Source of the DNA: Nitrospirota bacterium
GTDB lineage: Bacteria > Nitrospirota > Thermodesulfovibrionia > Thermodesulfovibrionales > UBA1546
Reading direction: 5' to 3'
DNA: 36,195 nt
NCBI GenBank assembly: GCA_016212165.1
Contig: JACRGY010000044.1
Coordinates: 1-36,195, forward strand
The notes below the pieces were generated by a model, which was given only the letters and a program-made list of their open reading frames with translations, had not been told where the DNA came from and did not search any database. The first letter of the stretch is position 1, and the number at the start of each line of letters is the position of its first letter. The position numbers were made by a program, and so were the translations under genes. Of the stretch, positions 8,312-35,373 are shown piece by piece.

Positions 8312-8971
8312 TTATTTTTTGAGTTTCTTTATTTCTTCCAGCCTCTTTTGGGAAGTTTCACCTTCCGTGGTTTTCGGGAAGAACTCTATTACTATCTTAT
8401 ACCCCTTCTCTGCTTCTATAAGGTCGCCAAGATTGAACTTTGCTTCAGAAAACATGAACAGATGATATGGCCTGTCAAGCTTCCCTGTGGCGATAAACTT
8501 TTTGACATGCGGCGTAAATATCCTTAGAAGCCTGTCCCACATCTTATTAGCGTAATAAGATTGCCCGAAGGCCTGTTCTATGTTGAACCCGAGCGTGGAA
8601 TCAGGATATCTCCCGAGAAAATCTTTATATAATTTTTCCGCCTTGTCAACTTTTGGGGGCTTGAACTCGTCAATGAGCAAAACAATAAGTCTCCAGTAAG
8701 TTTCTTCAACCAAAGGGACATCTGGATACTTATTTATTATCTCATCATACAAAGCCTCCATCTGCGGAAGTATGGATTGCCTATCCTCTGCTTCCTCTGT
8801 AAGGCTGAGTATCCTGCCAAACAGTTCATTCACCTTTTGCTCCTGCTCTTCAACAGAAGCTTTCTTCCCAGCAGAAAGCGGCTTCTTGTCATCTGTTATT
8901 TTGGGCGGCGTTACGCAAGCAGGGATTAAAAAAAGAAAAATCATGAGACCGGCAAAAAGCGCAGAGCGCAT
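8312..8971 (-). CDS. TPR-like outer-membrane lipoprotein (BamD/YbgF flavour)
   Basis: From the ATG at 8971 the protein has a short basic start, a hydrophobic stretch and LIPAC with Cys19 as the lipidation site, so it should be a lipoprotein of 219 residues. The mature part is helical. It has a linker rich in Lys/Glu, a coiled-coil-like [15 protein letters not shown] and helix pairs ([21 protein letters not shown], then [15 protein letters not shown] and [13 protein letters not shown]) typical of TPR lipoproteins such as BamD. Specific function is not assignable. The frame is open up to an ATG at 9130 that overlaps the upstream regulator's stop, with AAAGGAG 11 bp before it. That longer form would put ~53 residues of repeat-derived sequence before the signal peptide. 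I prefer 8971 because it gives a proper signal peptide, though no ribosome-binding site is visible there. Confidence 0.7.
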
Positions 8972-8985
8972 AGCGCATAGCGTGT
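8958..8985. repeat. Heptamer array across the lipoprotein start codon
   Basis: Four 7-bp units (agcgcag, agcgcat, agcgcat, agcgtgt). On the minus strand two successive units each contain an ATG, at 8978 and 8971, in different frames. The second is the start used for the lipoprotein call. Confidence 0.75.
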
Positions 8986-9126: not shown

Positions 9127-10491
9127 TCATTCTATATGATACTCCTTTATCTTAGTCAGCAGTGTTTTGTAACTCACCTGTAAAGCTTCTGCTGCCCTGC
9201 TTTTATTCCCTTTTGTTTCTTTCAATGCCTTTGTTATCCTCTGCGTTTCAGCAATCCTCAGCGCCTCCTTTGACGCATCCTCAAGAGTCCCGTTCATAGG
9301 GAGATTCTTCAACCCGGCTTCCAGGGACAGAGTGCTCAAAGATACATGTCCAGGAGTTATTACCCTGCCGTCACACAATATTATTGCCCGCTCAATCGTA
9401 TTTTCAAGCTCCCTTACATTGCCTTTCCATGAATAGTTAACAAGCATCTCCATAGTCTCATTCGAGATGCTCTTCAATGGAGCTTTAAGTTCTCTGCAGT
9501 ACTTATTAAGGAAAAAGTCTGCAAGTAACGGAATATCCTCTGTTCTTTCCCTGAGCGGAGGAATCATTACAGGAAAAACATTCAGCCTGTAGAACAGGTC
9601 TTCCCTGAACGCCTTTTCCGAAACAGCCTTTTCAAGGTCCTTATTGCTCGCTGCAATAATCCTGACATCTATCTTTATTGTCTTCAATCCTCCAATACGC
9701 TCAATTTCTCCTTCCTGCAAGACCCTGAGCAGCTTGGCCTGAAGCGCAGTGTCCATCTCTCCAATTTCATCGAGAAATATAGTCCCCTTATCAGCAAGTT
9801 CAAACTTTCCCATCTTCCTGAAATCAGCGCCTGTAAATGCGCCTTTTTCGTGTCCGAAGAGTTCAGATTCAAGAAGCTCTCTCGGTATGGCTGCACAGTT
9901 AATCGGCACAAATGGATATTCCCTTCTGGGACTGAGATTATGTATACCCCTTGCAAATAATTCCTTGCCTGTACCGCTCTCACCCAGTATGAGCACTGTC
10001 GTCTTGCTCGGCGCGACCTTCTGAATGTTCTGCGCGACAGTTGTAATTTTTTCACTCTTACCGATAATCCTTGGGATTCCAAGCTGGGCCGAGAATTCTT
10101 CTTTCAAAAGCATATTTTCTGTCATTAGCCTCTGTGTCTCAAGCGCCCTTTTCATAAGCATCAGCAGGTGGTCGGTATCAAAAGGCTTTGTAATAAAATC
10201 AAAGGCCCCCTCTTTCATTGCAATAACAGCAGTCTCAACCGACCCGAATGCTGTCATCACAATTACCGGCGTCAACGGGTTTTCCTCTTTTGCCGCTTTC
10301 AATACATCTATCCCGTCTTTTTTAGGAAGCTTCAGGTCAGTCAAAACCATATCCACCCTATCTTCCTTCAATTTTTTAATTCCCTCAAGCCCGTCCCTTG
10401 CAATGACAGTCCTGTAGCCTTCAGCCTTGAGGGTCTCTTTAAGCATATCTGACATTGATTCTCTGTCTTCGACTATGAGGATTGTTTCCAT
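9127..10491 (-). CDS. NtrC-family sigma-54-dependent response regulator
   Basis: A 454-residue activator with the three NtrC domains. The receiver has acidic E8/D9, the phospho-acceptor Asp52 (VLTDLKLP), Thr80 and Lys102. The AAA+ domain has Walker A GESGTGKE (170-177), the sigma-54 contact loop GAFTGA (217-222), Walker B TIFLDE (237-242) and an R-finger region [13 protein letters not shown]. The C-terminal Fis-type helix-turn-helix is at ~[20 protein letters not shown]. All key residues are present, so it should activate sigma-54 promoters when phosphorylated. No sensor kinase is adjacent, making it an orphan in this window. It is translationally close to the downstream lipoprotein frame (ATGA at 9127-9130). 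A perfect sigma-54 promoter lies 2.4 kb away at lpxC; whether this protein acts there is unknown. Confidence 0.95.
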
Positions 10492-21363: not shown

Positions 21364-22431
21364 ATGAGACTCTCTGATATAGGGGAACTTGCCCTCCTGG
21401 AAATAATCCGAAAAAGATTTGCCCGGAAATCAAAGCTGCGAACAAAGCAGAAGGGTATTATCGTCAATATAGGCGATGATGCAGCCGTGATAAAACCCCG
21501 GGCTAAAAAACTCCTTATCACCACTGACATGATGGTTGAAAGAGTGCACTTTGACTTAAGTTTTACAACACCTTACCAGCTTGGATTCAAACTCGTCTCT
21601 GTAAACGCAAGTGACATCTACGCAATGGGCGGGACACCTCATTACCTTCTGCTTGATATTGCAATGAATAAAATAACAGAGGAATCATTTGTTAATAGTT
21701 TTTTTGACGGTATTCAGGATGCCATAAAGCTATACGGGATATCGCTTATTGGCGGAGACCTCTCTTCTTCAAAAAAAGACATGGTTGCAGCTGCATCTCT
21801 CATAGGATACGCAGAAATACCTGTAAAGCGTTCAGGCGCAAAACCAGGGGATAAGATATATGTAACAGGCAGCCTCGGAGACTCTGCATGCGGGCTGGAG
21901 GTTCTTAAAAAAGCTGACAGCTGTCAGCTGTCAGCTGTCAGCAAAAAAATAACTGCTGCAAACTACCCTCTAATCGCTAAATTTAAAAAAACAGGATTAA
22001 CATGGAACACTATCGCCCCGCTGTTGAAAAGACACCTCATGCCGGAGGCAAGAAATTCTAAAAATTTAATTAAATATGCAACAGCGATGATTGATTTAAG
22101 CGATGGATTGTTTATTGACTTATCAAGACTGTGCAATGAAAGCAGAGCCGGCGCAAGGATTTACATAGAGCATATTCCTGTATCCAATCAGGCAAAAGAG
22201 GCATCATCGGCTTTAGGACTGGATTTATTTAAGCTCGCCACTTCAGGTGGTGAAGATTATGAACTGCTCTTTACAGCGCCTCCTGACTACAAGCCACGGG
22301 CCATGAGCCATGAGCTGAAGATAACCTGTATAGGCGCTATCACAAAAAAAGGCATGGTTGCAGTTGATAAATACGGGAAGGAATCAGCGTTAAAGGCAGA
22401 GGGTTACCAGCACTATGGGATTCAGAGATAG
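21364..22431 (+). CDS. thiL: Thiamine-monophosphate kinase
   Basis: ThiL phosphorylates thiamine monophosphate to the cofactor thiamine diphosphate. The 355-residue AIR-synthase-fold protein shows the nucleotide and metal sites: IGDDAAVI near residue 37, TTDMMVERVHF near 56, VSVNASDIYAMGG near 79, and GGDLSSS near 133. The C-terminal half has ATAMIDLSDGLFIDLSRL and the SGGEDYELLF block. Residues ~184-193 (KADSCQLSAV) are translated from a heptamer array (21913-21942) between the two halves, apparently tolerated in a surface loop. The start has little Shine-Dalgarno. It overlaps the next gene by 17 bp. Confidence 0.93.
   Translation: MRLSDIGELALLEIIRKRFARKSKLRTKQKGIIVNIGDDAAVIKPRAKKLLITTDMMVERVHFDLSFTTPYQLGFKLVSVNASDIYAMGGTPHYLLLDIAMNKITEESFVNSFFDGIQDAIKLYGISLIGGDLSSSKKDMVAAASLIGYAEIPVKRSGAKPGDKIYVTGSLGDSACGLEVLKKADSCQLSAVSKKITAANYPLIAKFKKTGLTWNTIAPLLKRHLMPEARNSKNLIKYATAMIDLSDGLFIDLSRLCNESRAGARIYIEHIPVSNQAKEASSALGLDLFKLATSGGEDYELLFTAPPDYKPRAMSHELKITCIGAITKKGMVAVDKYGKESALKAEGYQHYGIQR
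21913..21942. repeat. Heptamer array inside thiL
   Basis: Four 7-bp units (gctgaca, then gctgtca three times) plus two bases, the same family as at 735-769 and 29317-29351. It is translated in frame between the N- and C-terminal halves of ThiL. Confidence 0.8.
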
Positions 22432-22852: not shown

Positions 22853-24272
22853 GATATGTGTCATAAGCCTGGGCTGTCCGAAAAATACGGTTGATTCTGA
22901 TAACCTCACACGAAAACTTATCGGCAATGGCTTCCTGTATCTTAATACCCCTGAGGATGCAGATATCCTTCTCATCAACACATGCGGCTTTATTGAGGCT
23001 GCAAAAAAAGAATCAATTGAAGAAATACTGAAACTGGCAGCAATAAAAAAAGGGCCCAAAAAACTCATTGTCTTCGGCTGCCTTGCAAAGAGATATAAAG
23101 ATGAAATATTGAAGGCGATACCTGAAATAGACGCAATATTCGGAGTTGGAGAGGATGAAAAGATTGTTGAATACTGCGAAAGACTGAAAGAGTCAGAGGG
23201 TCTCGCCTCAGGTCCGCACTCAGGCGGATTCGCCGAGGAGAACGAGTCGCCGAGGAGACAGAGGGTCAAAGGGTCAAAGGAAATAAATAAGAATATAGGG
23301 CCGTCAACACCATCTCTTACCTATTCACCTATTAACCTATTCACCCATTCACCTATTCACCCATTCAGTAGCTATGCTTATCTCAAAATTTCTGAAGGTT
23401 GCAACAAAAGATGCTCATACTGTGTCATCCCCTCAATCAGGGGCAAATACAAAAGCATAAACCCCGATGAGATACTTAAAGAGGCAGAACGAGCTGTAAA
23501 AAGCGGGGCCAAAGAGCTTATCCTTGTTGGCCAGGACACAGCATGTTATGGTAAGGACCTCAATGGTTATAATATCTCAAAACTTCTGAAAGATATCTGT
23601 TCCTTAAGCGGTGATTTCTGGATAAGGCTGCTTTATGCCTACCCTGCTTCAATAAGTGAATCCCTCCTGAAAGTAATTGCGGAGGAGGATAAGATATGCA
23701 AGTATCTTGATATCCCCTTTCAGCATTCTGAGGACAGAATACTTAAATTGATGAAAAGAGGAGGCACCAGGAAAGGATATCTGAACCTTATCAGAAAAAT
23801 CAGGGACACAATACCTGATATCGCCCTCAGAACAACTTTTATCATAGACTTCCCGTCTGAAACAGAAAAAGAATTTAATTCTCTTTTAGATTTCATAGAT
23901 GAAGCAAGATTTGACAGGCTGGGCGTCTTTAAATACTCGCAGGAAGAAGGCACGCCTGCTGCAAAACTCAAGGGACAAATATCAGATATAATAAAAGACA
24001 GAAGGGTCAATGAGATAATGAAACATCAGGCACATATCTCTTTAGACGAAAACAAAAAACTTATCGGCAGACAATTCAAGGCACTTATTGATGAGATTAC
24101 TAATGGGATAGCAATTGGAAGGTTATATTCCCATGCGCCTGAAATAGACGGAGTGGTGATAATAGAGGCGGGGTCAAAGGGTCAAAGGGTCAAAGGGTCA
24201 AACACAGGCAGCTTCGTGACTGTTAAGATTACTACAGCATTTGAATATGACTTGAAAGGTATTATTGCATAA
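22842..24272 (+). CDS. rimO: Ribosomal protein S12 methylthiotransferase
   Basis: RimO adds a methylthio group to an Asp of ribosomal protein S12 by radical-SAM chemistry. The N-terminal UPF0004 domain has cluster ligands Cys12 (LGCPKN), Cys48 (NTCGF) and Cys80 (FGCLAKRY). The radical-SAM triad is Cys187, Cys191 and Cys194 (SEGCNKRCSYC). A C-terminal TRAM domain follows. It starts at TTG 22842, overlapping the DUF2062 stop. At 476 residues it is longer than usual because of repeat DNA: residues ~122-176, between the first two domains, are translated from a 32-bp dispersed repeat and two octamer arrays, and residues ~444-454 within TRAM come from a third. All catalytic Cys are intact, so it is probably functional. 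RimO rather than MiaB is chosen from SLGCPKN and its overall layout. Confidence 0.93.
   Translation: MADKICVISLGCPKNTVDSDNLTRKLIGNGFLYLNTPEDADILLINTCGFIEAAKKESIEEILKLAAIKKGPKKLIVFGCLAKRYKDEILKAIPEIDAIFGVGEDEKIVEYCERLKESEGLASGPHSGGFAEENESPRRQRVKGSKEINKNIGPSTPSLTYSPINLFTHSPIHPFSSYAYLKISEGCNKRCSYCVIPSIRGKYKSINPDEILKEAERAVKSGAKELILVGQDTACYGKDLNGYNISKLLKDICSLSGDFWIRLLYAYPASISESLLKVIAEEDKICKYLDIPFQHSEDRILKLMKRGGTRKGYLNLIRKIRDTIPDIALRTTFIIDFPSETEKEFNSLLDFIDEARFDRLGVFKYSQEEGTPAAKLKGQISDIIKDRRVNEIMKHQAHISLDENKKLIGRQFKALIDEITNGIAIGRLYSHAPEIDGVVIIEAGSKGQRVKGSNTGSFVTVKITTAFEYDLKGIIA
23213..23244. repeat. 32-bp dispersed repeat inside rimO (inverted copy at 28753-28784)
   Basis: This stretch is the exact reverse complement of 28753-28784, 32 of 32 bases. 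It contains an internal hairpin (ctcaggcg / cgccgag with one bulge). In rimO it is translated in the linker between the UPF0004 and radical-SAM domains; in the gspH-like gene it is translated in the prepilin leader. Confidence 0.85.
23263..23278. repeat. Octamer repeat gggtcaaa x2 in rimO
   Basis: Two perfect gggtcaaa units, the same unit that occurs four times at 24171-24202 in the TRAM part of the same gene. Confidence 0.75.
23320..23367. repeat. Six octamers in the rimO linker
   Basis: Six contiguous 8-bp units of the CC(T/C)ATTCA type, 48 bp or 16 codons. It is translated as a Pro/Ser/Ile-rich linker. The unit resembles the heptamer ccattca of the array at 697-724. Confidence 0.85.
24171..24202. 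repeat. Four perfect gggtcaaa octamers in the rimO TRAM domain
   Basis: Four perfect 8-bp units, 32 bp in total. They encode the GSKGQRVKGSN loop close to the C-terminus. The length is not a multiple of three, yet the frame remains correct through to the end. Confidence 0.85.
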
Positions 24273-27868: not shown

Positions 27869-27890
27869 GTTCTTCCGACTTTCCTGTGGA

Positions 27891-28270
27891 TGTCATTCCG
27901 GCGAAAGCCGGAATCCAGTGACTTTGCCTTATAATACGTTATGCCAAAGAAGGGCTATTTATATATTCTTGCCAGTCGCAGAAATGGGACTTTATATGTG
28001 GGCGTCACGTCAAATTTGGTCAAACGTGTTGAAGAGCACAGAGAAAAGCTGGTGGATGGGTTCACAAAACGTTACAGTGTTACAAGGCTTGTCTATTTTG
28101 AAATGTTTGAAGACATAAAAGACGCCATTACACGCGAAAGGCATATAAAGGAATGGAAACGCAAATGGAAAACAGAATTGATCCAATCCATCAATCCTTA
28201 TTGGCGCGATCTGTATGAAGACATTACATAGACATGAGTCGCTGGATTCCGGGTCAAGCCCTGAATGACA
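27891..28270 (+). mobile_element. dRS3-like palindromic element carrying a GIY-YIG nuclease gene
   Basis: The left half (27891-27918) has tgtcattcc, a small hairpin and ggaatccag. The right half (28242-28270) has ctggattcc, a partly matching hairpin and tgaatgaca. Between them lies a complete GIY-YIG ORF with little else. The empty copies at 31378-31445 and 35298-35373 have the same halves joined by only 11 or 19 bp. The arrangement looks like a repeat family with its own nuclease gene. Mobility is inferred, and no target duplication is seen. Confidence 0.6.
27941..28231 (+). CDS. GIY-YIG nuclease family protein (UPF0213-like)
   Basis: A 96-residue single-domain GIY-YIG endonuclease. The motif GYLYILASRRNGTLYVG covers residues 5-21, the catalytic Arg is probably Arg29 (SNLVKRVEEH), and the metal-binding Glu is probably Glu67 (TRERHIKEW). 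The length is that of the small UPF0213/YhbQ class, with no extra DNA-binding domain. Known GIY-YIG enzymes nick or cut DNA in repair, restriction and homing. It lies between the two halves of a palindromic repeat. No Shine-Dalgarno is visible; a TATAAT at 27930-27935 ends 5 bp before the ATG. Confidence 0.9.
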   Translation: MPKKGYLYILASRRNGTLYVGVTSNLVKRVEEHREKLVDGFTKRYSVTRLVYFEMFEDIKDAITRERHIKEWKRKWKTELIQSINPYWRDLYEDIT

Positions 28271-28350
28271 AAAAAGGATTACATGATGGGGACGATGTTT
28301 TTATCCACAAGGTTCCCCGAAGAGCCGTTAAATAACTGCTACTAAAGAAC

Positions 28351-28427
<77 letters not shown>

Positions 28428-28535
28428 ATTCAAAAAAAGTTACAATAGTTTCAAAAATTAAAATAGTTCAAAAAACAATAAAACACCTGCTGAAACTACT
28501 TCAACTTTTTAGCCTTCTGCAACTCTAAATAAGAG
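28428..28535. other. Spacer between the two tRNA genes
   Basis: An AT-rich spacer with loosely repeated caaaaa/tagttca words (28443-28510) similar to the 9-mer arrays elsewhere. No terminator is obvious, so the two tRNAs may be cotranscribed. Confidence 0.4.
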
Positions 28536-28608
28536 TAGGCGGAACAGGGATTGAACCTGTGACATCAGCCTTGTAAGGGCTGCGCTCTCCCAGCTGAGCT
28601 ATCCGCCC
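28536..28608 (-). tRNA. tRNA-Val (TAC)
   Basis: A cloverleaf on the minus strand with acceptor GGGCGGA paired with TCCGCCT (a G-U at the first pair). The D-arm is AGCTCAGCTGGGAGAGC, the anticodon is TAC, and the T-loop is GGTTCAATCC. The discriminator is A. CCA is not encoded, unlike in the neighbouring tRNA-Asp. Confidence 0.95.
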
Positions 28609-28674
28609 GAAAGAGACTAATATTAAACTATATAAAGGACCATTTTGTCAAATATAGCGGAATAATTACGGCTT

Positions 28675-29307
28675 ATGATAGAATTTATTCAAGGCTATCA
28701 AATGGAAGATAAAAGTTCAATATTAAAAGTAAAAAGTTTAATTTGTCATTCCCGTTCTCCTCGGCGAATCCGCCTGAGTGCGGATGAAAACGGGAATCCA
28801 GTCCCATTCACCGAAAATGGTTTTACCCTCATCGAGACAATAATGGTGATGGTGATCATAGCCATTCTTGCTGTGGCAATTGTTGTGAGAAATCCCTTTG
28901 ATGCCATAAAACTCAGCAGCGCAACGCGAAAAGTCGCAGGGGATATAAGATATGCTCAAAAACTTGCAATCTCAAACCAGTCAAGAGCAGGCTTGGTATT
29001 CGCTGCTGCCGGTTACAGCGTATATCGGGATATGACTGTTGCGGCTCCATATCCAGCAGCAGTTAGCCCCGGAGACCCCTGTTCAACAGACTCATCAAAT
29101 AATTTTGTGGTGGATTTTAATGATCCCAGATGCAGTAATTATCAAAATGTAACATTAGCACCCCCTGCTACTACAATTGCATTCAACGCCCTCGGCTCGC
29201 CTGTTGACGCTGCCGGCGGAGCCATTGGTCCCGTTACCATTACAGTCACATATAACGGCTCTCAGACAATAACAATTGCAGCAGGCACAGGAAGGGTGAG
29301 TTACTGA
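28675..29307 (+). CDS. GspH/FimT-type prepilin with repeat-derived long leader
   Basis: A 210-residue minor pilin or pseudopilin. The prepilin peptidase site is ENG49|FTLIETIMVMV, followed by a hydrophobic helix and a GspH-like body (ATRKVAGDIRYAQKLAISNQSRAGLVF). The leader of 48-49 residues is far longer than the usual 5-25, because residues ~23-43 are translated from a dRS3-like half-element (28744-28801). An ATG at 28702 would shorten it to 39-40. No good Shine-Dalgarno is visible at either start. It is first of four overlapping prepilin-like genes, which together probably prime assembly of a type IV pilus or type II secretion pseudopilus. Confidence 0.85.
   Translation: MIEFIQGYQMEDKSSILKVKSLICHSRSPRRIRLSADENGNPVPFTENGFTLIETIMVMVIIAILAVAIVVRNPFDAIKLSSATRKVAGDIRYAQKLAISNQSRAGLVFAAAGYSVYRDMTVAAPYPAAVSPGDPCSTDSSNNFVVDFNDPRCSNYQNVTLAPPATTIAFNALGSPVDAAGGAIGPVTITVTYNGSQTITIAAGTGRVSY
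28744..28801. repeat. dRS3-like half-element with expanded loop, inside a prepilin leader
   Basis: Arms tgtcattcccg and cgggaatccag normally enclose a 6-8 base loop. Here the loop is ~36 bp and contains the 32-bp sequence also found inverted in rimO (23213-23244). The right half of the full element is missing. Confidence 0.8.
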
Positions 29308-29873
29308 TGAAAAATCAGCTATCGGCTATCAGCTATCAGCCATCAGCTAACAACAAAGGCTTCACCCTCATCGAAATAGTGATGATAATTGTGATTGTTT
29401 CTATTGCAATCCCCGCGCTTTTAATAGTCCTCGGACAGGAGACAAGGCAGAGCGTCAATGCCGAGTTGCAGATAAATGCGGTGAATGTGGGTCAAGCGAT
29501 GATGGATGAGATACGGTCAAAGTGCTGGGATGAAACAGCCGCAAGTGCAGCTAATTGCAGTGGAACAGTAACACCTTCCGCTATAGCTAATGATGGAGAT
29601 GACAGAACTCAATGCACAGGCGCATTCACCGGAACACCTTATGACGATGTTGACGACTACAACGGATATTCAGAGACATGCACATGGGGCGGCCCAAGTT
29701 TTACAACAACTGTGCAGGTCTGTTATGTTCCTTCAGGGTCAGGGAACCTCGACAGTATTTCACCTTGTGTTACTGCTCAGGCGTCAGCAACAGACTACAA
29801 ACGCATTCAGGTAACCGTCTCAAATGCAACCCTCGGCTCAGTTAATCTCGTGACAGTGGCGGGGAATTATTGA
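29307..29873 (+). CDS. PilV/GspI-type prepilin
   Basis: A 188-residue prepilin with cleavage site NNKG18|FTLIEIVMIIV and a long hydrophobic N-helix. The C-terminal domain contains four or more Cys (KCWDE, NCSG, QCTG, ETCTW) that may pair. The leader (MKNQLSAISYQPSA) is encoded by a heptamer array at 29317-29351. The start ATG overlaps the previous stop (TGATG) by one base. Minor pilins of this type form the tip complex of type IV pili. Exact naming (PilV versus GspI) is not certain. Confidence 0.85.
   Translation: MKNQLSAISYQPSANNKGFTLIEIVMIIVIVSIAIPALLIVLGQETRQSVNAELQINAVNVGQAMMDEIRSKCWDETAASAANCSGTVTPSAIANDGDDRTQCTGAFTGTPYDDVDDYNGYSETCTWGGPSFTTTVQVCYVPSGSGNLDSISPCVTAQASATDYKRIQVTVSNATLGSVNLVTVAGNY
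29317..29351. repeat. Heptamer array encoding the pilV-like leader
   Basis: Five 7-bp units: agctatc, ggctatc, agctatc, agccatc and agctaac. Same family as at 735-769, 1056-1080 and 21913-21942. Confidence 0.85.
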
Positions 29874-30532
29874 TGAAAACTATGAATTACTACACAAACA
29901 AAATAATAGAGATATCCTTCACGCCCCTTTTGTCATTCTCGCGAAAGCGGGAATCCAGACGCCGTCTCCGTGAAAGCTGGGAACTAAAATCCTGGATTCC
30001 GTGTCAAGCACGGAATGACAGACGAGAGCATATTTGTACTAATAAAAAAGGCTTCACCATCATCGAACTTGTCATCACTATGGTACTAATAGGCATCATC
30101 GCCTATATTGTTGCAACTGCGCTTTCAACAGGCATTACTGCATATTTTACGACAGATTTTCGCAAAGAGGCGCTTGACCAAACAAGGATTGCAATGGAGA
30201 GGATGACGAGGGAGATAAGAAATCTAAGGGACAGCGACGATGTTGCCACAGGCACATCATCACAGTTTAATTTCACAGATGTAAGTGGAACCAACATAGA
30301 TTTTAGTTATAGCAATCCAAATATCACCCGCGACGGCGCTACCCTTGCAACAAATATAACCTCGTTTTCATTTAGTTATATCCGGGCAGATGGCGCTTCC
30401 AATCCCACATTTGTTGATTCGGATCCTGATGACCCTGCTATAGATACAAAACGAATCAGGATAACCTTCACAGCTACAATCTCAGGCGAAACTGTTACGC
30501 TTCAGTCCGAAGTCTGGCCGAGGAGTTTATGA
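29870..30532 (+). CDS. PilW/GspJ-type prepilin with repeat-derived leader
   Basis: A 220-residue prepilin. The cleavage site is NKKG61|FTIIELVITMVLIG, followed by a hydrophobic helix and a PilW/GspJ-like body (MERMTREIRNLRDSDDV). Residues 21-50 of the 61-residue leader are translated from a complete 90-bp dRS3-like element; without it the leader would be 31 residues. It overlaps the preceding gene by 4 bp (ATGA) and the next by 4 bp. It is predicted to act with the neighbouring minor pilins at the pilus tip. Confidence 0.85.
   Translation: MMKTMNYYTNKIIEISFTPLLSFSRKRESRRRLRESWELKSWIPCQARNDRREHICTNKKGFTIIELVITMVLIGIIAYIVATALSTGITAYFTTDFRKEALDQTRIAMERMTREIRNLRDSDDVATGTSSQFNFTDVSGTNIDFSYSNPNITRDGATLATNITSFSFSYIRADGASNPTFVDSDPDDPAIDTKRIRITFTATISGETVTLQSEVWPRSL
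29931..30020. repeat. Complete dRS3-like element inside the pilW-like leader
   Basis: Left half 29931-29958 and right half 29992-30020 are joined by a 33-bp spacer. Total 90 bp, exactly 30 codons, so the insertion or its removal keeps the frame. Confidence 0.85.
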
Positions 30533-31335
30533 TTAAACATATTAGCGCACAATCAGGCCTCTCAATCGTCGCCACAATCCTTGCGCTCCTGATATTTTCG
30601 CTTTTCATCGCTGTTGCAGTATCATTGGTTACAACAGGCGCGCATATTGGGGTGCAGGAAGAGCAGGGAGATCAGGCGTTTTATATCGCGGACGGAGGGA
30701 TACAGTATGTGCTTGCATATGCGCAGGACACAAGCACCATCCCCAATTATTCGACACATGGACAATGGATTCCGCTTGGCGCAGGAGAGTTTAAGGTTGA
30801 TACGCTGACTTACTTAACATCAGCCGTAGCAGTCGGCGATACAACAATCAATGTTGATTCAACAGCAAATTTTCCCTCAACAGGAGGCCGCATAACAATA
30901 GACACTGATTTCAACATTACTTACACTGGTACAAATCCTCCTAACCAATTTACGGGAGTCACTGTAACCACATCACATTCTATAAATAATTCCGTCTATC
31001 CGTCTGCGAAGATATTCACAACAATCCCCAATGACCCTTCATGCGCGGTGCGTCCGACAATTGATGTTGATGATCCACTATACCCTGATGATACAGGAGC
31101 TTTTGATATCGTTCATCCCCTTTTTATTGACAACGAATACTTCTTATGCTCTGCTAAAATAGCAGGGGCATTTCAAAACTGCCAGCGCTGTTATCTTGGA
31201 AGCGCTCCGGCTGCCCATCCTACAAATCGCTATGCATCGCAATATATCCTGACTTCAACAGGAAGAGTTACCAACTTTCTTTCAAACAATGTCCAGCGTG
31301 TTGTGAAGATAAGCGCAGGACCACATGAGGAGTAG
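30529..31335 (+). CDS. PilX-like minor pilin/pseudopilin
   Basis: A 268-residue protein beginning MIKHISAQSG|LSIVATILALLIFSLFIAVAVSL. This is a short leader and hydrophobic helix like PilX/GspK, though the canonical Phe+1 and Glu+5 are absent. The next segment (EEQGDQAFYIADGGIQYVLA) is typical of PilX-type proteins in this position. The body includes a beta-rich region and several Cys (CAVR, LCSA, CQRC). It is last in the four-gene prepilin set, overlapping pilW by 4 bp. Unlike its three neighbours, its leader carries no repeat. Confidence 0.75.
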   Translation: MIKHISAQSGLSIVATILALLIFSLFIAVAVSLVTTGAHIGVQEEQGDQAFYIADGGIQYVLAYAQDTSTIPNYSTHGQWIPLGAGEFKVDTLTYLTSAVAVGDTTINVDSTANFPSTGGRITIDTDFNITYTGTNPPNQFTGVTVTTSHSINNSVYPSAKIFTTIPNDPSCAVRPTIDVDDPLYPDDTGAFDIVHPLFIDNEYFLCSAKIAGAFQNCQRCYLGSAPAAHPTNRYASQYILTSTGRVTNFLSNNVQRVVKISAGPHEE

Positions 31336-31377
31336 GAGATGGGAGCATAAAATTACACCTTGCATAGGTACGCTTTT

Positions 31378-31445
31378 TGTCATTCCTGCGGAAGCAGGAA
31401 TCCAGAAAAAACAAAACTGGATTCCGCATCAAGTGCGGAATGACA
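31378..31445. repeat. Complete dRS3-like element before the DUF11 gene
   Basis: Left half 31378-31405 and right half 31417-31445 are separated by an 11-bp A-rich spacer. It lies in an open frame just upstream of the real start at 31470, so an automatic long start call would translate it. Confidence 0.85.
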
Positions 31446-31469
31446 GACCCGAAACTATTTGGAGGGAAT

Positions 31470-34004
31470 GTGAATAAATGTAAGACATATAAAAATCTTT
31501 TGAAGCTGGTTATCTTCTCTGTCATTGCATCTGCCTGCCTGCTTTACCACACAGACACGGCTCACGCATATGGTCCAACAGATTGCGCAGGACCGCGATT
31601 CGGCTCGAACCTGGGCTGCACTGCCAATGACGTTTCGATCACCGGCATAGCAGTCGTAGGCGGTCCCTCATCCTGCACAGGCGGCAGCAATATCACGGTT
31701 GATCTTGATGTTACGGTCAATTCCGGCACGCCTAACCGCTGGGATATCGGCATTTTCATCTCCAACGACGGCAAAGATCCGCAGTTGACCCCAGCAAGTG
31801 GCGGAGCTGCAAATTGTTCCGTGGCAATCCTGCCGACCACCGATCCACCATTCCGGAACTTAGACCCCGGCCCGTGGAGCGGCATTACCGACACCTGTGG
31901 CGACGTCAACGGCTCGATGAACGACCCGGCGGAGGGAAAACCCGGACCAAAAGGTACTGGCGTTCTGCGCATGACCAACGTAACCATTAATTGCCAGGCA
32001 TATAACGGACCCTTAGGCAGTAGCGGAGGCAATTTGTTTATTCCCTTTGTAGTAAGCTGGGACAACCAGTCCAGTCCCGCAGGCGCTACCTGCACATCCA
32101 TTGCTGACCCGGTACCCAACACGACATCCAAATGCAATGCCCCTCTTGTTGCCCAGGGCACAGTCAGTGTCGTGGTTCTGCCCGCAATCACCAATACCGA
32201 CAACATCACCATCATAAACCCTGGCGATACCGTTAATTATATTGTCGTCATCACAAATACCACGGGAGATACTATAAACAACTCAGTTTTTAAAGACCCT
32301 GCTGTAACCTATCTCACTGCTAACAGCGTAAGCTGCACTGCAGGCGGCGGAGCAACTTGCCCTGCCGGCCCCACAGTAGGGGCAATGCAGGGAGCAGGCC
32401 TCACTATTCCGTCCCTGCCCAACAACAGCAACGTGACCTTCAGCATCAACGCCACGCTGGCTATCAATGCACCGGCAGGTGAACTACTCACCAACACAGC
32501 AAGCGTCACTGTCAGCAGCCAGACCAACTCGGCCAGCGACACCGACACCATCTCTTCTATCCCCGTCGGAGTGATTTCAATAAGCCCTTCAAGCTCTTCA
32601 AAAAATACAGTTACTCCTTCCTCTGTTGTATTTAATTATACTATTTATAATCAAGCTTCAAGCCCTCCTTCAGATACAATCAGTCTTTCAGCTACATCAA
32701 GTCAGGGTTGGACTGTGCTGTTAAGCACATCCTCTATTACAGTAAATGCAAACGGGTCAGCAACATTTACACTAACTGTACAGGTTCCTTCAGGCATAAC
32801 CGCAGGCACGCTTGATACAACAACTATTACTGCAATATCAGGCAATAATCCGGGTAATACAGCAACGGCGACTGCTATTACAACAGTTAGTAACCCTATA
32901 ACCATAATACCAAACAACATAGCTTCGGGTGGTAAAGGATCCTCTGCATACTACGACCACACAGTCCAGAATAATACAAGCACAACTCAAACTGTGAATC
33001 TATCAACATCTTTTTCAGGTTCATGCACAGGATGGACAGCAACAATATATAAATCCGACAGGGTAACATCCATAACATCTGTCACACTTGACCCTTATGG
33101 CAGCTCTGGTGATCTGGACAAAGACATTGTAGTCAAGGTGAACATACCCGCTTCTGCCGCAACTGGAAGTATATGCACGGTGACTGTCACTGCCACCGCA
33201 GGAAGCGATACAGCATCAGCTACAGATGAAACAACGGTAAAAGACTTAGTCCTCTACTCAGATTCCGGCCACACAGATGAAAGTTACATATTCCCTGCAG
33301 GGAATATTGTTTATGCAAAGGCATTTGGTCTCGCTACAACTGGCAATAAAAAGTATTATTTCAAATGGTATGATTCAAGCAATACATTAAAAGAAACTTC
33401 GCCATCCAACAACCCGGATGCCAACAAACAATTGCCCGATAGCTATTCGATTTTAACAAGCGAATTAAATTTTGGAACATGGCGTGTAGAGGTCTGGTTA
33501 GATGAAACAACCGATGTAAAGATGTTAGAGACTAATTTCTATGTCGGCCCTGACCATGTAAGTGCGAGTTATACCGGTGCTAATCCAAGTATTAATACCG
33601 ACGTAACTATTAACCTCTCCCTCCATGACAGATATAACCACGATGTACCCTTAGATCCAGCCTATCTCTCCCCTAATATAAGAGTTGTCCGGGGAAACCC
33701 TCCGGCCACAAAAGACCCTTTAAAAATAACTGTAACTGTCAGCGGTTCTGCAACTATCGTCTCCACTACCCTGACGGGAGCTGTAATTACAGGCCAGACA
33801 GTTACCGGAATACTTAACAGTGCTATAGGAAGCACTACAGGAACAGCCACTATAACGATCACCGACAGCGTCAGGGAAATAGTTACTATCACTGCGACCA
33901 CCTATAACTCAGCCCTGTACGGCTCACCAGCGAGAGACGAATTCGCCGAAGTAAGGTTTGTCCTCAGAAGAATGAGGATACTCAAATGGCGGGAGGTGCA
34001 GTAA
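31470..34004 (+). CDS. Large secreted protein with DUF11-like repeat, mosaic
   Basis: From GTG 31470 (GGAGGG 3 bp upstream) the protein has 844 residues. The signal peptide has a hydrophobic core KLVIFSVIASACLLY and probable cleavage after AHA33. Residues ~34-255 are a Cys-rich domain. Residues ~255-365 match the DUF11 beta-sandwich pattern (NPGDTVNYIVVITNTTGDT). The rest is a series of Thr/Ser-rich Ig-like segments (e.g. SATFTLTVQVPSGITAGT, TVQNNTSTTQTVNLSTSF). No sorting signal or C-terminal anchor is seen. Base composition drops near 32570 (hand counts: 65% GC at 31861-31920, 42% at 32821-32880). It occupies the slot where pilY1 often follows minor pilins, but shows no PilY1 propeller. Function is unknown; a surface or adhesive role is a guess. 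Confidence 0.75.
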   Translation: MNKCKTYKNLLKLVIFSVIASACLLYHTDTAHAYGPTDCAGPRFGSNLGCTANDVSITGIAVVGGPSSCTGGSNITVDLDVTVNSGTPNRWDIGIFISNDGKDPQLTPASGGAANCSVAILPTTDPPFRNLDPGPWSGITDTCGDVNGSMNDPAEGKPGPKGTGVLRMTNVTINCQAYNGPLGSSGGNLFIPFVVSWDNQSSPAGATCTSIADPVPNTTSKCNAPLVAQGTVSVVVLPAITNTDNITIINPGDTVNYIVVITNTTGDTINNSVFKDPAVTYLTANSVSCTAGGGATCPAGPTVGAMQGAGLTIPSLPNNSNVTFSINATLAINAPAGELLTNTASVTVSSQTNSASDTDTISSIPVGVISISPSSSSKNTVTPSSVVFNYTIYNQASSPPSDTISLSATSSQGWTVLLSTSSITVNANGSATFTLTVQVPSGITAGTLDTTTITAISGNNPGNTATATAITTVSNPITIIPNNIASGGKGSSAYYDHTVQNNTSTTQTVNLSTSFSGSCTGWTATIYKSDRVTSITSVTLDPYGSSGDLDKDIVVKVNIPASAATGSICTVTVTATAGSDTASATDETTVKDLVLYSDSGHTDESYIFPAGNIVYAKAFGLATTGNKKYYFKWYDSSNTLKETSPSNNPDANKQLPDSYSILTSELNFGTWRVEVWLDETTDVKMLETNFYVGPDHVSASYTGANPSINTDVTINLSLHDRYNHDVPLDPAYLSPNIRVVRGNPPATKDPLKITVTVSGSATIVSTTLTGAVITGQTVTGILNSAIGSTTGTATITITDSVREIVTITATTYNSALYGSPARDEFAEVRFVLRRMRILKWREVQ

Positions 34005-34006
34005 GG

Positions 34007-34306
34007 CTAATTACCCTTCAGGCTCACAGCCCCTGTCTGAGGGTCGTAGCTGTATTTTGACATATCCATCTCAGCGTGGATTGACTCTTTAATCTCATCC
34101 AGAGACTGAGGATACTTGCCATTGAGCGCATAATATGCCTGAACCGCCTTTCTCACCGCATCGAGGTTTGCTGTCGCTCCTGCCTGCTGGCCCTTTTTAT
34201 ACGCATCTGTCAGGGAATTTCCGTATTCAGCCACAGGATTTTTGGGCTCTTCCCCGCAGGCGGCAAACATGAATAAGACAAGCGCAGACAAAAATAACAC
34301 CTTCAT
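34007..34306 (-). CDS. Small lipoprotein with GspG-like pilin domain
   Basis: A 99-residue protein. The signal peptide MKVLFLSALVLFMFAAC gives Cys17 as the lipid site. The mature part has LDAVRKAVQAYYALNGKYPQ followed by YSYDPQTGAVSL, the pattern of the globular part of GspG/PilA-type major pseudopilins. The hydrophobic pilin helix is missing and replaced by the lipid anchor. It is convergent with the DUF11 gene, with only 2 bp between the two stops, and close to the minor-pilin cluster. A role at the pilus or secretion machine is inferred only from fold and place. Confidence 0.7.
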   Translation of the reverse strand: MKVLFLSALVLFMFAACGEEPKNPVAEYGNSLTDAYKKGQQAGATANLDAVRKAVQAYYALNGKYPQSLDEIKESIHAEMDMSKYSYDPQTGAVSLKGN

Positions 34307-34312
34307 GAAACT

Positions 34313-34347
34313 ATCTTATCACAAATTAAGCGTTAATCCTGTAAAAT
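34313..34347. promoter_or_regulatory. Divergent -10 elements of the lipoprotein and EamA genes
   Basis: On the minus strand TG-A-TAAGAT (34313-34321) is an extended -10 ending 6 bp before the lipoprotein ATG. On the plus strand TAAAAT (34342-34347) ends 5 bp before the EamA GTG. No -35 or Shine-Dalgarno is clear for either. The whole divergent gap is 46 bp. Confidence 0.4.
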
Positions 34348-34352
34348 AATCC

Positions 34353-35222
34353 GTGTGGGTAATATTTGCATTAATCTCCGCATTCACTCTCGCAACAAGC
34401 GATGCGCTTACAAAGAAGGCGCTCAGAGACAGCAATGAATATCTTGCTGCATGGTTCAGGCTTTTCTTTTCTCTGCCACTTTTAGTAGTTATCCTGCTTT
34501 TTATTCCAATGCCTCAACTGGACAAAGAGTTTTTCAGTGCCTTTTTCATAGCCCTGCCGGTTGAGATAATAACAATAATCCTTTATATAAAGGCCCTGAA
34601 GGTTTCTCCCATGAGCCTTACCCTTCCCTTCCTTGCATTAACACCTGTGTTTTTAATTTTCATTTCCTATTTCATAGTCGGGGAAAAAGTATCCTTTTGG
34701 GGAGGCATGGGCATTTTCCTGATAGCGGCAGGGAGCTATATATTAAATATCAGCGAGATAAAGAAGGGTTTTTTTGAACCATTTAAGGCTGTAACAAAGG
34801 AAAAGGGTTCTGTATTTATGATATGTGTTGCCCTGCTCTACAGCTTTACAGCATCATTCGGAAAAAAGGCAATAGAACATTCTTCGCCTTTATTTTTTGC
34901 AGTAACCTATTTCATAGCCCTGACTGTTTTGTTTGCGCCGATAGCTTTCTGGATGGCAAGGAATGACTTAAAAAATTTTATAAGGGAAAGACAATTCAGG
35001 GGATTGTTCCTGCCGGGTATTTTTTATGCTGTTATGGCTAGCTCACATATGCTGGCAATGAAACTTACTAAAGTGGCTTATATGATATCCTTGAAGAGGC
35101 TGAGCCTGATTATAGGGATAATGTACGGCTACTTCCTTTTTAAAGAAGAGAACATAAGGGAAAGGCTTCTCGGCGCAATACTAATGTTTATTGGTTTTGT
35201 GATAGTTGTAACGGCATCATGA
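34353..35222 (+). CDS. EamA/DMT-family transporter
   Basis: A 289-residue inner-membrane protein with about ten hydrophobic helices in two tandem EamA halves. The first half is ~1-130 (ALISAFTLATSDALTKKAL...) and the second ~148-289 (FMICVALLYSFTASFGKKAIEHS... LLGAILMFIGFVIVVTAS). Members export or import small metabolites; the substrate cannot be told. It starts with GTG. Stand-alone gene, with a dRS3-like element downstream. Confidence 0.85.
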   Translation: MWVIFALISAFTLATSDALTKKALRDSNEYLAAWFRLFFSLPLLVVILLFIPMPQLDKEFFSAFFIALPVEIITIILYIKALKVSPMSLTLPFLALTPVFLIFISYFIVGEKVSFWGGMGIFLIAAGSYILNISEIKKGFFEPFKAVTKEKGSVFMICVALLYSFTASFGKKAIEHSSPLFFAVTYFIALTVLFAPIAFWMARNDLKNFIRERQFRGLFLPGIFYAVMASSHMLAMKLTKVAYMISLKRLSLIIGIMYGYFLFKEENIRERLLGAILMFIGFVIVVTAS

Positions 35223-35297
35223 CAAGTAAATGATTCAGCCTATCTAAGACAAAGCATACGATAGAATGAAATTGCTGTCATTACTGAACTGACTTTT

Positions 35298-35373
35298 TGT
35301 CATTCCCGCGAAAGCGGGAATCCAGAAGCATCATCAAAAAATAACTGGATTCCGTGTCAAGCACGGAATGACA
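35298..35373. repeat. Complete dRS3-like element between the EamA gene and rpmA
   Basis: Left half 35298-35325 has ATTCCC-GCGAAAGC-GGGAAT. Right half 35345-35373 has attccgtgtcaagcacggaat. The spacer is 19 bp. Outer arms tgtcattcc / ggaatgaca are inverted. It is the clearest empty copy and serves as the reference for the others. Confidence 0.9.

Follow-up and report, generated by a model that had tools for sequence, protein, structure and literature searches.

The window, that is, the whole stretch of 36,195 nucleotides analyzed here (contig JACRGY010000044.1, assembly GCA_016212165.1), belongs to an uncultured Nitrospirota bacterium (genome G000; 2.79 Mb in 202 contigs, contamination estimate 8%) that has GWF2_44_13 and SURF_35 among its named relatives. 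Its forward strand carries three consecutive prepilin genes, gspH-like (28675-29307), pilV-like (29307-29873) and pilW-like (29873-30532), all of which match PF07963 above the cut-off (25.2, 23.0 and 29.5 bits, respectively), with a G|F-type cleavage site, a hydrophobic helix and Glu5. The gspH-like product also matches the GspH family PF12019 (25.9 bits), and the pilV-like protein scores 36.4 bits with the PilV model TIGR02523, under its cut-off of 52.2. The cleavage motif (PF07963/TIGR02532) lies at residues 47-48, 15-17 and 57-59 of the respective ORFs, and the leaders would be cleaved by a prepilin peptidase; no motif of that enzyme was found in the sampled stretches, which cover only part of G000. 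The next gene of the operon (30529-31335, forward strand) has no family match, is named pilX by position only, and encodes the repeat-free N-terminus MIKHISAQSG. Downstream of the minor pilin genes lies a large gene for a surface-type DUF11 protein (31470-34004, forward strand; PF01345, 26.3 bits).

Repeat DNA in the Prepilin Leaders

The gspH-like leader, which ends in PFTENG|FTLIE, contains the left half of a dRS3-like element with an expanded loop (28742-28801, forward strand), read as CHSRSPRRIRLSADENGNPV. All 60 bp are the same as in an intergenic copy on contig C144 (L041, about 1429-1488), where the element has its right half as well. Most of the pilV-like leader is a CAGCTAT heptamer array of five imperfect units (29314-29349, forward strand), read as QLSAISYQPS, while the pilW-like leader, whose predicted peptides include ESWELKSWIPCQAR, holds a complete palindromic dRS3-like element (29930-30019, forward strand) with its left half at 29930-29958 and its right half at 29992-30019. 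The arrangement described in the earlier note, namely a half-element, a heptamer array and a full element of about 90 bp, each stopping just short of the G|F site, was thus borne out. The term dRS3-like serves as a label here, for what we take to be a likeness to the dRS3 repeats of Neisseria.

The starts of the pilV-like and pilW-like genes are well fixed, since each overlaps the stop codon of the preceding gene (TGATG). They give leaders of 18 residues, as the earlier note had stated, and of 60 residues from the coupled ATG29873; the 61 residues previously proposed for the latter are obtained only from the alternative TTG29870. As for the gspH-like gene, a leader of 49 residues would begin at ATG28675, which sits within TATGATAGAATT. 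Because the counterpart of this sequence in two genomes of the same genus, TATGATAAAATT, is located upstream of the ATG, where it resembles a -10 box, the start is probably ATG28702, with a leader of 40 residues. Published bacterial prepilin leaders span 6-26 residues (PMC4471445), which places the gspH-like and pilW-like leaders outside the usual range and the pilV-like leader inside it.

Twelve prepilins were identified in G000, and a fourth one with a repeat leader (L009, contig C152) has 33 leader residues that correspond to (GCGTTCA)4 and (CCTATTCA)4. Another prepilin (L002, contig C84) lacks ATG, GTG or TTG near its leader, and GGAGGAG precedes an ATT codon; this ATT is a possible start, and similar cases were seen in G003 (L124) and G014 (L171).

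The half-element patterns and an 18-nt pattern of the CAGCTAT array were counted across G000 and in reversed-sequence controls. Matches to the left half numbered 32, those to the right half 15 and those to the heptamer pattern 112, the controls giving 0 in each case. Since the half-element patterns are absent from the controls, the leader repeats are not chance occurrences; they are the genome's own dispersed repeats. The dRS3-like copies lie mostly outside clear genes. Complete intergenic elements matching the half-element patterns are found in the window at 31377-31444 and, in the same orientation, at 35297-35372 (both forward strand). The first of them is upstream of the DUF11 gene, whose likely start is GTG31470; an ORF from TTG31377 was rejected as yet another repeat leader because GTG31470, with the Shine-Dalgarno-like GGAGGG just upstream, is the better start. 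Four of the 32 left-half matches of the genome occur at 27890-35372, in about 1.3% of the genome, and the dRS3-like copies there all have the same orientation, a clustering that suggests local proliferation.

Probable Translation of the Repeats

All data come from metagenome-assembled genomes, with one genome per species in the comparison set; simple scripts were used for ORF calls and array detection, and statistics were computed over about 1.32 Mb of sequence stretches. Some small G000 contigs were excluded from the analyses of reading frames, internal arrays, repeat load and array pairing. The frame test considered prepilins located 41-260 nt after an upstream stop and asked if the pilin frame extends uninterrupted from that stop. 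Among the 34 repeat-bearing intervals, the pilin frame was open in 28 and the other frames in 4 and 1, with totals of 12 stops versus 88 and 94. When frames were picked at random, 28 open intervals were never reached in 100,000 trials (P about 1e-5 or less, a value that, like all others given here, is not phylogenetically independent, since the species share ancestry). The corresponding numbers of open intervals were 14, 1 and 7 for the 39 repeat-free intervals. For the pilW-like gene of the window, frame 0 has no stop over 179 nt, and the other frames have 5 and 4. Because the pilin frame is open in excess through non-native DNA, which would not be the case for an untranslated leader, the repeat-bearing leaders are very probably translated.

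The situation that the earlier note had named as contrary to its reading is one in which initiation occurs past the repeats, close to G|F, and the repeats are untranslated 5' sequence. Some relatives do have an in-frame ATG or GTG about seven codons before the cleavage site, provided by the CATCGTG array itself (MHRGKKG, VHRDNNG), and in a dRS3-like case in G003 the closer ATG is linked to a Shine-Dalgarno sequence. The frame test argues against such downstream starts, as do the coupled start codons of the pilV-like and pilW-like genes and the lack of any ATG, GTG or TTG between the repeats and G|F in the window. This explanation consequently appears very unlikely.

The heptamer arrays might also act as contingency loci, in which one 7-bp unit more or less would change the reading frame and so turn the production of minor pilins on or off. 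Their unit is not a multiple of three, they are located between the start codon and the mature protein, and phase variation is often associated with tandem repeats close to the starts of genes, according to work cited in PMC4692102. The arrays share the non-triplet unit and the 5' coding position with phase-variable loci, but they are short and imperfect, with about 3-5 units, in contrast with the long, near-perfect tracts of the latter. In addition, arrays of this kind are found inside housekeeping enzymes, for which switching would be detrimental, and palindromic elements occupy the same place in leaders without any tandem structure. Frame switching is therefore an unlikely function of the arrays. 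The broader idea that mobile heptamer arrays in leaders make up a frame-switch set that diversifies the minor pilins and is renewed by genome-wide repeat turnover would be quite improbable.

Leaders of Orthologous Prepilins

The comparison of orthologous leaders called for in the earlier note revealed that the same leaders carry unrelated repeats in different species. Within the family of the window genome, orthologous leaders are mostly 13-60 residues long and their repeats differ between species, even inside a genus. Thus, six family members (G004, G005, G007, G009, G011 and G014) have long, repeat-built leaders of other kinds than those of the window. The kinds found in the family include ACAGGAT arrays (IQDTGYR), CATCGTG arrays (HRASCIV), AGTTAAA and TTCACTG arrays, and CCCC...AAGGGG palindromes (PPHPPLSKGG). 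Despite these different leader repeats, the mature pilW-like proteins are 58-67% identical across these members. In two genomes of the same genus, G001 and G003, the gspH-like leader is a heptamer array of 18 residues, in place of the palindromic half-element of G000, and the pilV-like leader of G003 carries ACAGAAC and TGTCTAC arrays where G000 has CAGCTAT. For the mature pilV- and pilX-like proteins, no match was obtained in eight relatives, some of which have no operon or an operon cut at contig ends.

Orthologous leaders of repeat-poor relatives are 4-19 residues long, and those of other families of the order (L052-L055) about 4-8. G339 (family f10) represents a remote case, with a heptamer leader of 43 residues. 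Among 396 genomes of the phylum, 5 have CATCGTG-type leaders, and 4 of these belong to the window's family. Families f1 and f11 are likewise rich in the AGTTAAA heptamer pattern, which hardly occurs elsewhere in the order. The operon of G001 is broken right after the gspH-like gene (L120:10440-10699), where the pilV-like start opens a short frame; downstream pilins were not found after that start.

Leader Length, Repeat Load and Enrichment

Leader length, as hand-assigned from candidate starts, correlates with the repeat load of the genome (Spearman 0.67, p=0.006, n=15 genomes). Mean leader length is 4.5-16 residues in the five genomes that have 0-2.5 arrays per 100 kb outside leaders and 18-45 residues in the ten that have 4.9 or more. 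Leaders range from 4 to 19 residues in the array-poor genomes G006, G022, G029, G034 and G043, and from 10 to 60 in array-loaded ones.

Long leaders might alternatively be selected because they slow down or regulate the synthesis or export of pilins, the repeats merely supplying length. Type IVb pilins with longer leaders are known (PMC4471445), and the RNA of the pilW-like leader folds better than its shuffles (z = -2.4), so that some effect of this folding on translation is possible. On the other hand, length and sequence vary freely among close relatives and follow the repeat load, and G006, a nearly array-free member of the same family with the same operon, retains leaders of 10-19 residues. 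The suggestion of the earlier note that long leaders slow or regulate export found no positive support in leaders that are conserved neither in sequence nor in length, and selection for length is improbable.

A fixed-start test was restricted to genes whose start overlaps the preceding stop codon, a property that prevents the choice of start from biasing the result; starts were de-duplicated, and arrays of 6-10 bp units were recorded within the first 60 codons. Arrays were found in 15 of 29 prepilins, in 7 of 89 other hydrophobic N-termini, including one GspK-like pseudopilin, and in 1 of 61 other genes (Fisher tests, 2e-8 and 1e-6). The bodies of these genes contained 4 array-bearing cases in 131 kb, as counted before the de-duplication of starts. 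Tolerance explains the excess of prepilins over other hydrophobic N-termini only if their leaders are looser than Sec n-regions. This excess could also indicate that the repeats target prepilin leaders by way of an insertion enzyme that recognizes the conserved cleavage-site motif. However, three unrelated classes of repeats occupy one site, these classes are also seen in intergenic DNA and in other proteins, and many prepilins of the same genomes are repeat-free, all of which makes active targeting highly unlikely.

The same arrays are also present in signal peptides of the Sec type and, at shared positions, inside uncleaved cytosolic enzymes, for example in a RimO/MiaB-like linker and a NagZ-like loop, whose repeats differ by species. 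In the window, the tandem array of the RimO/MiaB-like linker is at 23317-23367 (forward strand), where relatives carry different repeats. The possibility that repeats are confined to cleaved sites was rejected on account of the arrays inside uncleaved enzymes, and leader removal through prepilin peptidase does not fully explain why repeats are there, given the arrays in Sec signal peptides and at enzyme sites that are never cleaved. Cleavage makes leaders a favored site and is not a precondition for tolerance. The neutral landing site proposed in the earlier note is supported by the unrelated repeats, the link between length and load and the enrichment in prepilins, but its rationale, removal of the leader, does not account for the arrays in Sec signal peptides and uncleaved enzymes.

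In-frame heptamer or octamer arrays were observed at 21910-21944, 23317-23367 and 24169-24204, in the ThiL-like and RimO/MiaB-like genes of the window, and likewise in NagZ-like, RecJ-like and BadF-like genes of other genomes. A minus-strand gene starting near 9130 has a heptamer array and a palindrome-like stretch (8956-8983) ahead of the lipoprotein-type signal IFLFLIPAC; this putative lipoprotein signal also has a repeat-derived N-terminal extension.

Leaders as Probable Permissive Sites and Comparison with Known Systems

Prepilin leaders in this Nitrospirota lineage are probably permissive sites that dispersed repeats keep entering. This reading draws on the identity of the repeats, the open frame, the coupled starts, the turnover, the link to repeat load and the enrichment, and it would entail that the leaders are translated, cleaved and nearly neutral and that the repeats move. 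The entering repeats would be palindromic dRS3-like elements, CCCC..AAGGGG palindromes and paired heptamer arrays. Because the minor-pilin genes overlap head to tail, they leave hardly any space between one another. From the coupled start codon up to the final residues ahead of the cleavage site, the leader would tolerate extra sequence, since only these last residues and the hydrophobic helix would matter and the rest would be discarded. Insertions that preserve the frame would survive and be translated into the leader, and others would be lost. The leader repeats then turn over, so that related species carry different ones. Prepilin leaders would be the densest case of a wider tolerance that extends to Sec signal peptides and to certain loops inside proteins. 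Selfish DNA apparently settles where the damage to proteins is small, lengthening leaders from about 5 up to 60 residues.

Like described type IV prepilins, those of the window have a hydrophilic leader ending in Gly, a hydrophobic helix and Glu5 (PMC4471445; PMC10191384), but leaders in this lineage reach 40-60 residues and are largely repeat DNA. Apart from the last few residues, leaders are largely dispensable; some systems allow a shorter leader, and the final Gly is critical (PMC4471445). The closest precedent for the leader repeats is the Rickettsia palindromic elements, which were reported to be inserted in frame and translated in many unrelated protein genes (Ogata et al., 2000, as cited in PMC10969869). 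The window repeats resemble them in being multi-copy palindromes with intergenic copies that keep the host frame open. They differ in that several classes are involved, including heptamer arrays, and in their common preferred site, the cleaved leaders; the likeness drawn here is one of behavior, and the repeats would work like such elements and are not assigned to them. Enterobacterial RU repeats are fused to ORFs, and in YPO1552 a portion of the predicted signal peptide comes from RU-2 (Delihas, 2007; PMC2759123). There too, a mobile repeat supplies residues of a cleavable N-terminal signal, but in one Sec signal peptide, whereas here class III (prepilin) leaders show such repeats systematically across a family. 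The heptameric SSRs of Xanthomonas and Nostoc, which form G-quadruplexes and are under-represented on coding strands within ORFs (PMC4692102), are similarly dispersed 7-bp tandem arrays of few units, whereas the present arrays are of diverse kinds, occur in pairs and often lie in frame within genes. The open-licence papers searched yielded no description of heptamer arrays in coding regions, GIY-YIG-linked repeats or intragenic repeats of Nitrospirota that corresponds to this pattern, nor of prepilin leaders systematically occupied by repeats of several classes. In-frame palindromic repeats are already known, and it is this systematic, multi-class occupation that is new as far as could be found.

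If the leaders are indeed permissive, these genomes would constitute a long natural insertion experiment on the prepilin leader, in which up to about 60 varied residues are tolerated upstream of the last residues before cleavage. Such tolerance would bear on how substrates are read by SRP/Sec and by prepilin peptidase. Cleaved leaders, like intergenic DNA, could be refuges for selfish repeats, and a simple test of this would be that leader length follows repeat load. For annotation, long leaders in such genomes need not mean wrong start calls, and the peptides HRASCIV, IQDTGYR and PPLSKGG might serve annotators as marks of translated repeats.

Paired Arrays and GIY-YIG Units

Adjoining pairs of arrays separated by a short spacer number 54 genome-wide versus about 2.5 expected (for example at 694-766), and their second arm tends toward likeness with the reverse complement of the first, which suggests that paired heptamer arrays are a two-armed element.

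A single-domain GIY-YIG nuclease gene (27941-28231; PF01541, 63.1 bits) is enclosed in a unit of the forward strand at 27890-28269, flanked by the left half (27890-27918) and the inverted right half (28242-28269) of a dRS3-like element. About 21 GIY-YIG genes of this single-domain type are present in the family, and 5 of them have significant inverted flanks. As a lead, the unit is a candidate full-length relative or source of the palindromic class, and the short repeats may be non-autonomous derivatives of GIY-YIG elements. Similar arrangements with other repeat families were seen at L234, L225, L244 and L237. Two distant GIY-YIG frames (L120:9352-9558 and L138:8224-8430) lie beside a tRNA gene and are flanked by tRNA-like fragments and GGTCGTCCCGAT..ATCGGGATCC palindromes.
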